Below, in pieces: positions 4,565-60,335 of a DNA stretch of 64,000 bases. Source of the DNA: Anaerolineales bacterium (GTDB lineage: Bacteria; Chloroflexota; Anaerolineae; Anaerolineales; UBA11579); the NCBI GenBank assembly GCA_019454165.1, contig CP075367.1, positions 1,962,805 through 2,026,804 on the forward strand. Direction: 5' to 3'. Numbering within the stretch: the stretch's first letter is position 1; the number at the start of each line of letters is the position of its first letter. The position numbers were made by a program, and so were the translations under genes. The notes under the pieces were generated by a model. The model ran no database searches, had not been told where the DNA came from, and worked only from the letters and a program-made list of their open reading frames with translations.

Positions 4565-4918
4565 ATGAGCAAGGGGCGCGTGTTTCTCTTTCTGTGGAGC
4601 CAAGCGGAAGCCGAGGCGGCCGCCCGCTTGATATCAGGCTGGGGCTGGCAGGTGGACACCGAATGGCAGGATGGCGGCCGCGGCAGCGCGGCGGTAAAAG
4701 CCAGCCCGCCCGATGCGGTGGTGCTGTATCTGGACCACAAGCCATCCCACAGCCGCGTGACAGCCGAGCACCTGGCGCAGACCAAGGCTACGGCGCACAT
4801 CCCGCTGCTGTTCGTAGGCGGCGAAGGCGAGGGGCTGGCCAAGACGCAGGCCAAGCTGCCCGGGGCCACGTATACGTCGGAGGCAGGGCTGCAAGCCGCG
4901 CTGGAGGCGCTGCGATGA
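4565..4918 (+). CDS. Small receiver-like protein of unknown function
   Basis: A 117-residue soluble protein starting MSKGRVFLFLW with an alternating strand/helix pattern and the stretch PDAVVLYLDHKPSHSRVTAEHL and IPLLFVGG that resembles the fold of a response-regulator receiver. The acidic phosphorylation pocket is not evident, so it may be a pseudo-receiver; this is a weak guess. A TATGAT box at 4552-4557 puts the transcript start near 4564, favouring the ATG at 4565 over the in-frame ATG at 4553. It overlaps the start of tag by four bases (ATGA), so the two are translated as a pair. Confidence 0.65.
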   Translation: MSKGRVFLFLWSQAEAEAAARLISGWGWQVDTEWQDGGRGSAAVKASPPDAVVLYLDHKPSHSRVTAEHLAQTKATAHIPLLFVGGEGEGLAKTQAKLPGATYTSEAGLQAALEALR

Positions 4919-8497: not shown

Positions 8498-9400
8498 ATG
8501 AACGACTACGGGCACGACCTGCTGTTCGGGGCCTTCATCACCCCGGTGGCCCAACCGGCGCAGCAAGCGGTTGAGCTGGCACTGGCCGCCGAGCGAGCCG
8601 GGCTGGACCTGGCAACCTTCCAGGATCACCCGTACCAGCCGCGCTTCCACGATACGTGGACCTTGCTCTCGTACATCGCGGCGCGCACGCAGCGCATCCG
8701 CATCAGCGCTAATGTGCACAACCTGCCGCTGCGCCAGCCGAGCGTGCTGGCGCGTAGCGCGGCCAGCCTGGACCTGCTGAGCGGCGGCCGCTTTGAAATG
8801 GCACTGGGCGCGGGCGGGTTCTGGGATGCGATCGCCGCCATGGGCGGCCGGCGGCTGCGCCCGGGCGAATCGATCGAGGCGCTGGGCGAGGCGATCGAGA
8901 TCATGCGCATGCTGTGGGACACCGAGGAACGCAGCGGGGCGCGGCTGAACGGCAAGTTCTATCAAGTGAACGGAGCCAAGCGCGGCCCGGCGCCTGCCCA
9001 CCCGATCGAGATCTGGGTCGGCGCCTATAAGCCGCGTATCCTGGCGCTGGTCGGGCAACTGGCGGACGGCTGGGTGCCCAGCCTGGCTTATCTGGAACGA
9101 GGCCTGCCCAGCCTGGGCCGCATGAACCAACTGATCGACGAGGCCGCCGAGGCGGCCGGCCGCCCGGCCGCCAGCGTGCGGCGCATGCTCAACATTGGCG
9201 GCCAGTTCAGCCCCAACGAGAACGGCCTGCTCCACGGCCCGCCGCAGCTGTGGGCTGAGCAACTGGCCGAGATGACCTTCCAATACGGCACGAGCGCCTT
9301 CATTCTGGCGGTGGATGACCCCACCACGATCGAGCGCTTCGCCAAGGAAGTGGCGCCCGCCACGCGTGAGCTGGTGTCCGCCGAACGCCAACGCAAATGA
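8498..9400 (+). CDS. LLM-class flavin-dependent oxidoreductase
   Basis: A 300-residue TIM-barrel protein of the luciferase-like family, with DLATFQDHPYQ near 45, the conserved RIRISANVHNLPLRQPSVLARSAASLDLLSGGR spread over 67-100, and GLGAG-like ALGAGG following. Members use FMN or F420 to oxidise or reduce small organic substrates; which cofactor is used here cannot be told. The ATG at 8498 has AAAGGAG 8 bases upstream. The stop overlaps the start of ogt (ATGA), so the two are coupled, and only 25 bases separate it from the exporter operon. Confidence 0.85.
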   Translation: MNDYGHDLLFGAFITPVAQPAQQAVELALAAERAGLDLATFQDHPYQPRFHDTWTLLSYIAARTQRIRISANVHNLPLRQPSVLARSAASLDLLSGGRFEMALGAGGFWDAIAAMGGRRLRPGESIEALGEAIEIMRMLWDTEERSGARLNGKFYQVNGAKRGPAPAHPIEIWVGAYKPRILALVGQLADGWVPSLAYLERGLPSLGRMNQLIDEAAEAAGRPAASVRRMLNIGGQFSPNENGLLHGPPQLWAEQLAEMTFQYGTSAFILAVDDPTTIERFAKEVAPATRELVSAERQRK

Positions 9401-37427: not shown

Positions 37428-37640
37428 CTAGCCTACGACGACGACGTCCTGAGCCTGGGGGCCCTTCTGGCCCTGGGTCACGGTGAATTCCACCTTCTGA
37501 CCCTCTTCCAGGTTACGGAAGCCTTCGCCGCTGATGGCGCTGAAGTGGACGAAGACGTCCGGGCCACCCTCACGGGTGATGAAACCGAAGCCCTTGGTGC
37601 CATTGAACCACTTCACGGTGCCTTGAATGCGTTCTGCCAT
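37428..37640 (-). CDS. csp: Cold-shock protein 1
   Basis: A 70-residue CSD protein with RNP1 KGFGFI and RNP2 VFVHF. It binds single-stranded RNA and DNA and acts as an RNA chaperone. AAAGGAG precedes the ATG. A long AT-richer leader region lies upstream. It is closely similar to the second copy at 40581, with which it shares the [14 protein letters not shown] segment, so they are paralogues in a duplicated neighbourhood. Confidence 0.95.
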
Positions 37641-37847
37641 TGCGATCTATTAACTCCTTTCTTGCAGAGTTAGGTAGAGCGTTCTTACGCCATGGCGGCG
37701 CGACAGACCGGAACTCAGCATAGCCGAATTCACACCTGTACATTCAAGGACAGTTGTAATGACTGTGGGGGAAAAACCTTGAAAAACCACTACTAACCTA
37801 CAGCCGAAAATATATCACGAAATTTGTTAGATGTATATATGAAAATT

Positions 37848-41742: not shown

Positions 41743-42438
41743 ATGCCCAAGCCTGCGGCAAATGCAAAAGAGCCGCTCTCTCAATCCATCGAAGATTATC
41801 TCAAGGCGATCTACGAACTGACCCGCGGGGATGGCCGCGCCTCTACCAACGCGCTGGCGGAATATCTCAACGTGGCCCCGGCCTCGGTGACCGGCATGCT
41901 GCAAAAGCTGGCCGGCACGCAACCCGCGCTGGTCGAGTACCAAAAGCACCGCGGCGTGCTGCTGACCGAGCAAGGCGAGCGCGTGGCGCTGGAGACGATC
42001 CGGCATCACCGCCTGCTGGAGCTGTTCCTGCATCAGATCCTCGGCTACGAATGGCACGAGGTGCATGAGGAGGCCGACCGGCTGGAGCATGTCATCAGCG
42101 AGCAGTTCGAGCAGCGCATCGCTGAGGCGCTGGGCGACCCGCGCCACGACCCGCACGGCGATCCGATCCCACGCATGGACCTGAGCCTGCCAGAGAGCGA
42201 CGAGATGCCGCTGAGCGCGCTGCGCCCCAGCCAACGCGCCCGCGTGACGCGGGTACGCGACAGTGTGGCCGACCTGCTGCTACATCTGAGCGAGCTGGGC
42301 GTAGTGCCGGGCACCGAGCTGACCGTTACCGCCTTTTCAGAATTTGACGGCAACTTGCATGTGAAACTACGCGGACGCAAAGATGAGATCGTGCTTGGCC
42401 CGCGCATTACCAGCCAGGTATACGTAGAAACTCTATGA
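41743..42438 (+). CDS. DtxR/MntR-family metal-dependent regulator
   Basis: A 231-residue protein with an N-terminal winged helix (SIEDYLKAIYELTRGDGRASTNALAEYLNVAPASVTGMLQKL is spread over residues 14-55), a dimerisation domain with metal-ligand residues (HHRLLELFL, EWHEVHEEADRLEHVIS) and an SH3-like FeoA domain at the C-terminus (LGVVPGTELTV). It senses Fe or Mn. It overlaps the CDF exporter gene by four bases (ATGA), so it most likely controls metal export in response to excess. Confidence 0.92.
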   Translation: MPKPAANAKEPLSQSIEDYLKAIYELTRGDGRASTNALAEYLNVAPASVTGMLQKLAGTQPALVEYQKHRGVLLTEQGERVALETIRHHRLLELFLHQILGYEWHEVHEEADRLEHVISEQFEQRIAEALGDPRHDPHGDPIPRMDLSLPESDEMPLSALRPSQRARVTRVRDSVADLLLHLSELGVVPGTELTVTAFSEFDGNLHVKLRGRKDEIVLGPRITSQVYVETL

Positions 42439-58323: not shown

Positions 58324-59973
58324 CTACAGTTCCAGCTTGGCTTTGGCCGCCTGATAATCCGAGTACCCGCCGGGGTACTCCACCAGCTTGCCGTCCTCAA
58401 GCTCCACGATGCGGGTAGCGACGCGGTCAAGGAAGTAGCGGTCATGCGAGATGGCCAGCACGCTGCCCTCGAACTCGGCCAGCGATTCTTCCAGCACTTC
58501 CGCCGAGCGGATGTCGAGGTTGTTGGTCGGCTCATCCAGCAGCAGGAAGTTGGCCCCACTGAGCATGATCAGGATGAGCTGCAAGCGGCTGCGCTCACCG
58601 CCGGAGAGCGTGCCGACCGGGTTGTTCATGCGCTGGTACTCGTAGACGAACTTGTCCAGTAGCTTCACCGCATTGGCCTCAGACAGGTTAGCCGCCCGGC
58701 GCACGGTGTCCATCAGGGTCATGGTGTGGTCGAGCGTCTCGTGCTCCTGGGCATAGTAGCCGGTTTGGATGCTGGGGCCGACTTTGATCTCGCCCGCGTC
58801 GGGTGCGTCGCGGCCGAGCAGCAGGCGGAACAGCACAGACTTGCCCGCCCCGTTGGGGCCAACCAGCCCGACCCGCTCGCCGTGCCACAGGGTAAGGCCC
58901 AGCCCATCCAGCACCTGGTTCTTGCCCTGCGGGCTATCAAAGCTCTTGGCAACGTCGGTAAGCTCCAGCACTTTGTTGCTGCCGCGCCAACCTTTGAACT
59001 GCAGGTTCATGCTGCGCGGATCAGCCTTGGGCTTCTCGACCTTCTCCATCTTCTCGATGCGCTTCATCATCGATTTGGCGCGGCGGATCAGCTTCTCATT
59101 CTCGTGCGAGCGGCCCCAGATCAGCATACGCTTGGCCGACTGCTCCAGGCGGCTGATCTCGTTCTGTTGCACTTTGAACTGGCGCTGCTGCTCGAGCAGC
59201 TTGGCCTCTTTGAGGGCTACGAATTCGGAGTAGTTGCCCTCGTAGACGGTGACCTTGCCGTCGCGCAGCTCGGCGATCTCGTCCGCAACCACGTCGAGCA
59301 TGAAACGGTCGTGCGAGATGATGACCACGCCGCCGTGATAGTTGCGGATGTACTGCTCGAGGAACTCCTTGCCGTCCATGTCGAGATGGTTGTCGGGCTC
59401 GTCCAGCAGCAGGATGTCCGGGCGGGTGACCAGCAGCTTAGTCAGGCCCAGCAGCTTCTTCTGGCCGCCGCTCAGGTTGCTGACGGACAGCTCCAGCTCG
59501 TGCTCGGCGAAGCCCAGGCTCAGCAGCGTGGAGCGCACCTGGCCTTCGTAGCCCGGGCCGCCGATGCGGGTATGCTCCTCCAGCAGCTGGGCATGCTCCT
59601 CCAGCTTGCGGCTGAGACGTTTCTCATCACTGTAGACCTCCGGCTGGCCCATTTGCTCTTCCACCAGGGCCAGCGAGCGTTCGAGCTCAAACAGGCGCGT
59701 GTGGGCGGTCAAGGCCTCCTGCAGCAGGGTGTGCTCAGGGTTGAAGCGCGGCTCCTGCGGCAGGTAGCCAATGCTGAGCTTGCCGCGCATGTTGGCGTAG
59801 CCGGTCTCGGTGGTCAACTCGCCGGAGATGAGGCGCAGGAGGGTGCTTTTACCGCTGCCGTTGATGCCGATCAGGCCGACGCAGCGATCCTTGTGGATTT
59901 CCCAGGAGAGGTTCTTGAAAACCGGCTCGGCATTGTAGGTGACAGTGACCTGGTCGAGGCTGAAGCCGATTAT
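58324..59973 (-). CDS. ABC-F family ATPase, apparent AUA start
   Basis: A 549-residue protein with two ABC domains and no membrane helices: first site GINGSGKST, LSGGQKKLLGL and LLLDEPDNHLD; second site GPNGAGKSV, LSGGERSRLQLIL and LLLDEPTNNLD. ABC-F proteins bind the ribosome and relieve stalling or give antibiotic protection. No ATG, GTG or TTG occurs between the upstream in-frame stop and the first Walker A. AGGAGG lies 5 bases before ATA at 59973, and that ATA overlaps the DUF4260 stop as ATAA, exactly where an ATGA overlap would be. A truncated start at TTG 59817 would remove Walker A and is unlikely. Confidence 0.88.
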   Translation of the reverse strand: MIGFSLDQVTVTYNAEPVFKNLSWEIHKDRCVGLIGINGSGKSTLLRLISGELTTETGYANMRGKLSIGYLPQEPRFNPEHTLLQEALTAHTRLFELERSLALVEEQMGQPEVYSDEKRLSRKLEEHAQLLEEHTRIGGPGYEGQVRSTLLSLGFAEHELELSVSNLSGGQKKLLGLTKLLVTRPDILLLDEPDNHLDMDGKEFLEQYIRNYHGGVVIISHDRFMLDVVADEIAELRDGKVTVYEGNYSEFVALKEAKLLEQQRQFKVQQNEISRLEQSAKRMLIWGRSHENEKLIRRAKSMMKRIEKMEKVEKPKADPRSMNLQFKGWRGSNKVLELTDVAKSFDSPQGKNQVLDGLGLTLWHGERVGLVGPNGAGKSVLFRLLLGRDAPDAGEIKVGPSIQTGYYAQEHETLDHTMTLMDTVRRAANLSEANAVKLLDKFVYEYQRMNNPVGTLSGGERSRLQLILIMLSGANFLLLDEPTNNLDIRSAEVLEESLAEFEGSVLAISHDRYFLDRVATRIVELEDGKLVEYPGGYSDYQAAKAKLEL

Positions 59974-60335
59974 GGCTGCCTCCTGCCCTGCCCGATCTGG
60001 CCGAGGTGGGTGTTCTGGAAGGAGTCAGGGTACTTCAGGCCGTAGCCAAAGACGCGGTCGAGGCTGGCGTGCGCGAACAGGATGATGCCGGCCACGCGCA
60101 GCGGGATGGAATCCATCGGCACGCTGAGCGCGAACATCAGCACCGCCAGGGCGCGATGGTGAAAGAGGTTGTAGGTGAATGCGCCAATGCGCGGCCCGGC
60201 CAGGTAGCCGATGGCCGAGAGGTCAGGCGCGAACAGCAACAACGCGAACCACCACCACGGCAAGCCCATACCGGCGTAGGCAAACAGGGCCAAGGCAAAA
60301 AGCGCGGCTTCTTCAATACGCAATATGGTTTTCAT
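59970..60335 (-). CDS. DUF4260 membrane protein
   Basis: A 121-residue protein with about three helices and the family's LFAPDLSAIGYLAGPRIGAFTYNLFHHRALA and AHASLDRVFGYGLKYPDSFQNTHLG. Function unknown. Its TAA stop shares bases with the putative AUA start of the ABC-F gene, so the two are probably one operon. Confidence 0.9.
   Translation of the reverse strand: MKTILRIEEAALFALALFAYAGMGLPWWWFALLLFAPDLSAIGYLAGPRIGAFTYNLFHHRALAVLMFALSVPMDSIPLRVAGIILFAHASLDRVFGYGLKYPDSFQNTHLGQIGQGRRQP

Follow-up and report, generated by a model that had tools for sequence, protein, structure and literature searches.

Few bacterial genes with non-canonical start codons of the IF3-sensitive class have been characterized experimentally (PMC5472188); examples are infC, sigR, ccpN, cvfC1, and citZ. 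The infC gene starts with AUU and is autoregulated in E. coli, and starts with AUC in Streptomyces (PMC5472188); the GTC start of Streptomyces sigR was experimentally shown to be repressed by IF3 (PMC5472188). In S. aureus, expression from three AUA or AUU starts was ∼10% of that from AUG in poor medium, and from the ccpN start it was up to 30% in rich medium (PMC13009471). The staphylococcal starts, which are AUA in ccpN, AUU in cvfC1, and AUA in infC, are conserved and lie behind strong extended Shine-Dalgarno (SD) sequences (PMC13009471).

In the present work, we analyzed an ABC-F gene with an apparent AUA start in a stretch of 64,000 nucleotides (hereafter, the window) from an Anaerolineales genome assembled as a single contig of 2.24 Mb (G000). 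Comparison among genomes confirmed the AUA start as real and conserved rather than an artefact, and on this sequence evidence the gene is a member of the small known class with conserved IF3-class starts. As with sigR, a gene other than infC would be held low, and a conserved non-canonical start is misplaced by annotation; the differences are that sigR starts with GUC instead of AUA, AUC, or AUU (AUH), that it encodes a sigma factor, and that its IF3 effect is experimental (PMC5472188). With the staphylococcal ccpN, cvfC1, and infC it shares the conserved AUA/AUU type of start and the strong extended SD, whereas those are other genes in another phylum and were measured, the ABC-F case being comparative (PMC13009471). 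Our literature search returned no paper joining "ABC-F" with "AUA start codon" or "non-canonical start codon". The features are collected in Table 1.

Table 1. Positions of the features discussed; plain numbers refer to the window, with position 1 as its first letter.
Feature	Position	Strand	Basis
Gene of an ABC-F ATPase of 549 aa with both nucleotide-binding domains	58324..59973	-	Profile and PDB sequence matches
Predicted start codon (AUA) of ABC-F, sharing bases with the upstream TAA in ATAA	59971..59973	-	Frame reading and aligned relatives
Shine-Dalgarno AGGAGG, 5-base spacer to ATA	59979..59984	-	16S-tail pairing
DUF4260 gene, upstream of ABC-F	59970..60335	-	PF14079, 151 bits
GSDH-type lipoprotein gene, putative ATA start in ATAA	G000:C1:508603-509853	+	PF07995 GSDH

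The protein scored 426 bits against NF000355 (cut-off 380), and its two ABC_tran stretches joined by an ABC_tran_Xtn linker identify it as an ABC-F ATPase; it is the sole NF000355 match in the window genome at E 1e-60 or better. It belongs to the same protein family as EttA and other housekeeping ABC-F proteins, and EttA chains were its best-scoring PDB matches. It differs from them in missing the EttA (ChvD) cut-offs, with 399 of 599 bits for NF008775 and 388 of 807 for TIGR03719, and in its start, since 98 of the 105 non-AUH loci described below carry ATG at the aligned codon. Among the 25 families listed, the resistance ABC-F models (Msr, Vga, Lsa, OptrA, and others) gave scores far under their cut-offs.

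The junction was read directly on the minus strand, which from position 60000 runs ...GGGCAGGAGGCAGCCATAATCGGCTTC, and the TAA stop of DUF4260 (59972-59970) shares bases with the ATA. The first-pass annotation of this DNA had described the ATAA overlap, the AGGAGG five bases ahead of the ATA, and the lack of any ATG, GTG, or TTG before the Walker A motif, and all three were borne out. The frame extends from stop to stop over 60024-58324, and its first canonical codon is a TTG at ORF codon index 69, that is, residue 53 counted from the ATA, followed by an ATG at index 78 (residue 62). Read from the ATA, the predicted N-terminus is (M)IGFSLDQVTVTYNAEPVFK. The same annotation had set the ATAA beside ATGA junctions elsewhere in the window; those at 9397 and 32635 are present in the overlap table of the window, the one at 42435 fits an ORF end and a first ATG, and at 4915 an in-frame ATG was located, which bears out the ATG alone. 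A canonical start elsewhere, either upstream in frame or at codon 9, might be proposed from some relatives, because G002 has an open frame that holds a GTG 12 codons upstream and codon 9 is GTG in G002, G003, G009, G010, and G011. In the window genome, however, a stop lies 17 codons upstream of the ATA, none of the codons in this interval is canonical, codon 9 reads GTC, and no canonical codon appears until after Walker A (GINGSGKS, residues 36-43), so that we consider such a start highly improbable.

The relatives of the window genome are Anaerolineales MAGs. Within its family, 24 genomes were searched, an orthologue was found at E 1e-100 or better in 16, and the start was readable in 15, the orthologue of G022 lacking its N-terminus. 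Eleven of these starts are AUH and four are ATG. ATA stands at codon 1 in G000, G008, G007, G005, G002, and G001 and in the deeper relative G011, ATC in G003, ATT in G009, G010, and G014, and ATG in G006, G012, G017, and G020. In the frames of G003 and G009, a stop stands a single codon ahead of codon 1. The first six, including the window genome, make up the closest group, all with ATA at 92-100% protein identity; the proteins of G000 and G008 are nearly identical, and these two therefore count almost as one. In the genus, 9 of 11 members have AUH, G006 has ATG, and G004 (76% complete) gave no ABC-F match. The first-pass annotation had left open a rare non-AUG start, taken to lower expression of a translation factor, or a single-base error or mutation. 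The rare start was supported by ATA in six genomes and ATC, ATT, or ATA in five more distant ones, a GGAG-type SD being present in every case. Since ATA, ATC, or ATT is kept in the relatives, a true rare start is favored over a sequencing error. An error or a recent mutation of ATG in the window genome has nothing to recommend it beyond the single-base difference from ATG, and is refuted by the same ATA in five other genomes, by AUH in five more, and by the purifying selection described below; its probability is practically negligible. As for ATGATC, the reading that the annotation took to speak against its view, one genus member (G006, 76% identity) does read so, without an SD, and in the five closest relatives these six bases are ATAATC or ATAATT instead.

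Across the order, 400 genomes were searched, with a match at E 1e-165 in 114; 30 matched loci and 76 further stretches were read, G250 and G348, both of which lack the N-terminus, and G340 being left out. After removal of seven duplicates and of two fragments lacking the N-terminus (G022 and G006), there were 116 distinct loci, two of which (G037 and G025; ∼36% identity) may be paralogues. These comprised 11 AUH, 98 ATG, 1 GTG, and 1 TTG starts, and the remaining five have a canonical start a few codons further upstream. All 11 AUH loci fall within the family of the window genome, and the other 105 are canonical.

Over the 15 pairs of the six ATA genomes, dN/dS of the ABC-F gene was 0.01-0.07, with dS at 0.51-1.13 in 14 of the pairs. 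In codons 2-40, there were 0-5.7 nonsynonymous versus 0-20 synonymous differences, the zero-zero pair being G000/G008. By these measures, purifying selection acts on the gene from its second codon onward. In each of the six genomes, ATA is used once in the gene, at codon 1, among 24-28 isoleucine codons; as it is kept there in five other genomes and the internal isoleucine codons are always ATC or ATT, its place at codon 1 is more than chance. Furthermore, AUH persists from G000 to G011 at 61% protein identity, a distance at which neutral sites are saturated. In a tree of 31 rows, the AUH genes fell in one clade of 13, two members of which (G006 and G012) have ATG; an inner clade of 12 was firm (100/100), and the inclusion of G011 was less so (86/83). 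Three changes of start state are required, which may be one gain and two reversions or independent gains. The ATG of G006 and G012 indicates that the weak start is not indispensable.

The 16S tail of the window genome is ...GGATCACCTCCTTTCT, and its duplex with the AGGAGG reaches -10.3 kcal/mol. In a sample consisting of the window and G000:C1:400001-800000, together 21% of the genome, this value was attained by 10 among 266 genes whose ATG is conserved, each taken by its best-scoring ATG. GGAG or GAGG lies no more than 18 bases from the start in 11/11 AUH loci versus 19/98 ATG loci, and the mean duplex was -8.4 for AUH versus -3.4 kcal/mol for ATG (Mann-Whitney p 2e-7, relatedness ignored). 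In G006 and G012, the ATG members inside the AUH clade, it was -1.7 kcal/mol, with no GGAG-type SD. Of the three independent pairs that the tree offers, an average of 2.9 showed SD and start associated in the same direction and none in the opposite one (sign test p 0.25, a number of pairs with which significance cannot be reached).

The infC gene is a close parallel. TIGR00168 was found in 19/19 genomes searched, and the start was readable in 16, with G001 cut by a contig end, G048 missed by the motif, and G028 unclear. The aligned start is ATC in G000, G005, G007, G008, G002, and G006, ATT in G003, G009, and G010, and ATA in G011, G012, G014, G016, G017, G020, and G033, thus varying between subclades of the family, and a GGAG-type SD precedes it in 16/16, a layout matching that of the autoregulated infC of E. 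coli and of the Streptomyces infC (PMC5472188). From the in-frame stop to the core, no canonical codon occurs in eight of them (G017, G014, G033, G016, G003, G009, G010, and G006). The other eight, G000 included, have a TTG or ATG upstream of the SD, which in G000 and G005 is a TTG seven codons upstream with an SD-like score of -5.0. Judging from these sequences, a canonical start of infC at the upstream codon is unlikely in these genomes, and the TTG in G000 lowers our confidence in the explanation of the ABC-F start given below. The two genes thus have in common an AUH start, a GGAG-type SD, a ribosome-acting product, and presence in the same genomes. They differ in that IF3 would act on ABC-F in trans, and in their codons, ABC-F having AUA in the six closest genomes and infC having AUC in the five of them where it is readable.

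Initiation at the second codon, with codon 1 as leader, is an improbable alternative. Codon 2 is ATC or ATT, likewise of the IF3-sensitive class, in 11/11 AUH members, and its distance of 8-12 bases from the GGAG overlaps the 7-9 bases seen at several infC loci. Against this, codon 1 lines up with the ATG in the outgroups and stays AT-H where the flanking bases differ, and it lies 5-9 bases from the GGAG in the 11 AUH loci. We infer that the exact start is the AUA rather than the neighboring AUC or AUU.

The ABC-F start is probably a true, selected, and weak one, sensitive to IF3 as those of infC, sigR, and ccpN. In the explanation that we consider likely, the ordinary initiator tRNA would initiate at AUA, which the strong SD helix would bring into the P site; as a member of the AUA/AUC/AUU class discriminated against by IF3, the codon would give a low translation rate. 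Scarce IF3 or laxer initiation would then raise ABC-F output, in the way infC controls itself, and this setting may be useful since the ABC-F product itself acts on the ribosome. AUA and AUU starts were measured as weak elsewhere (PMC13009471), so ABC-F should be weakly translated and responsive to IF3. An altered initiator tRNA was also considered and rejected, because the single initiator-type anticodon loop found by a one-pattern search has the ordinary anticodon CAU.

To estimate how rare such starts are, we compared 392 ORFs of the sample with a homologue in the G005 stretches, some of them antisense shadow frames. A first screen flagged 45 of the 392 pairs, many being antisense shadows or having canonical starts outside the tested offsets, and left infC unflagged. 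An SD-based test, demanding a conserved AUH with an SD of -6 or better in both G000 and G005 and therefore missing weaker AUH starts, listed 19 positions in 18 genes. Two of these, ABC-F and a GSDH-type lipoprotein gene, lack a conserved canonical codon over a range of 25 codons; infC has only the TTG described above, and the other 15 have a nearby conserved canonical codon. The junction of the lipoprotein gene is GGAGAAAGAATAAAA, with the ATA within ATAA behind a GGAG, an arrangement common to G000, G008, G005, G007, G001, and G002. In five of these six genes the signal peptide contains a TTG (or ATG) codon, and in G001 no canonical codon appears until past the lipobox. All 14 other GSDH loci read carry an in-frame ATG downstream of the stop and ahead of the conserved core.

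This second AUA gene, with no obvious regulatory role, bears on the possibility that the ABC-F start is a true AUA without regulation, in which an ancestral ATG drifted and a strong SD, which may simply compensate the weak start, kept the pair near-neutrally at a suitable level. The trade-off of SD strength and start class across the family, including the weak SDs of the two ATG clade members, agrees with such drift, which we regard as possible though rather unlikely. ATA, ATC, and ATT are nonetheless kept over saturating divergence, a G appears in the clade only where the SD is missing, and infC, of the same layout in these genomes, is a well-studied regulated case elsewhere (PMC5472188).

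Of the 15 family members whose ABC-F start is readable, 11 have DUF4260 just upstream, the two genes touching or nearly touching; in G010 (L161:4360-6586) they stand ∼2.2 kb apart, and in the flanks examined of G011, G017, and G020 DUF4260 was not found. The ATAA overlap in six genomes could favor reinitiation after DUF4260, in which case IF3 sensitivity may differ. That ABC-F is made mainly by termination-reinitiation, with ATAA acting like ATGA, is compatible with the IF3-discriminated AUA start, and we hold it to be quite unlikely as the main route. The same six genomes repeat the overlap at their GSDH lipoprotein gene, and among the four-base junctions of the sample ATGA occurs most often (25 of 65 tallied). 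On the other hand, AUH is kept in G010 and G011 with DUF4260 distant or not found, which indicates that AUH starts are independent of DUF4260 and led us to reject this coupling as a requirement, and in G003 and G009 codon 1 does not overlap the stop.

Gene callers limited to ATG, GTG, and TTG are expected to miss the ABC-F start and to lose Walker A from the predicted protein. That another ribosome-acting factor besides IF3 has a start of this type suggests that the stringency of initiation may be coupled to more than IF3. In addition, the recipe of no canonical start, conserved AUH, and strong SD picked up infC blind and yielded another case within one fifth of the genome, so that a list of such genes could be compiled for the whole genome.

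Three minor observations concern other frames. The start-less-looking window ORF at 37428-37673 (+) was rejected as antisense to a minus-strand gene, whose product we take from its appearance to be a cold-shock protein. A lipoprotein-like gene at G000:C1:535370-536863 (-) has no canonical start before its signal peptide where G005 has ATG, possibly a start loss or another non-canonical start. Finally, a second ABC-F gene of G011 (NF000355 match) has a frame that begins TAA ATC TTG GCC.
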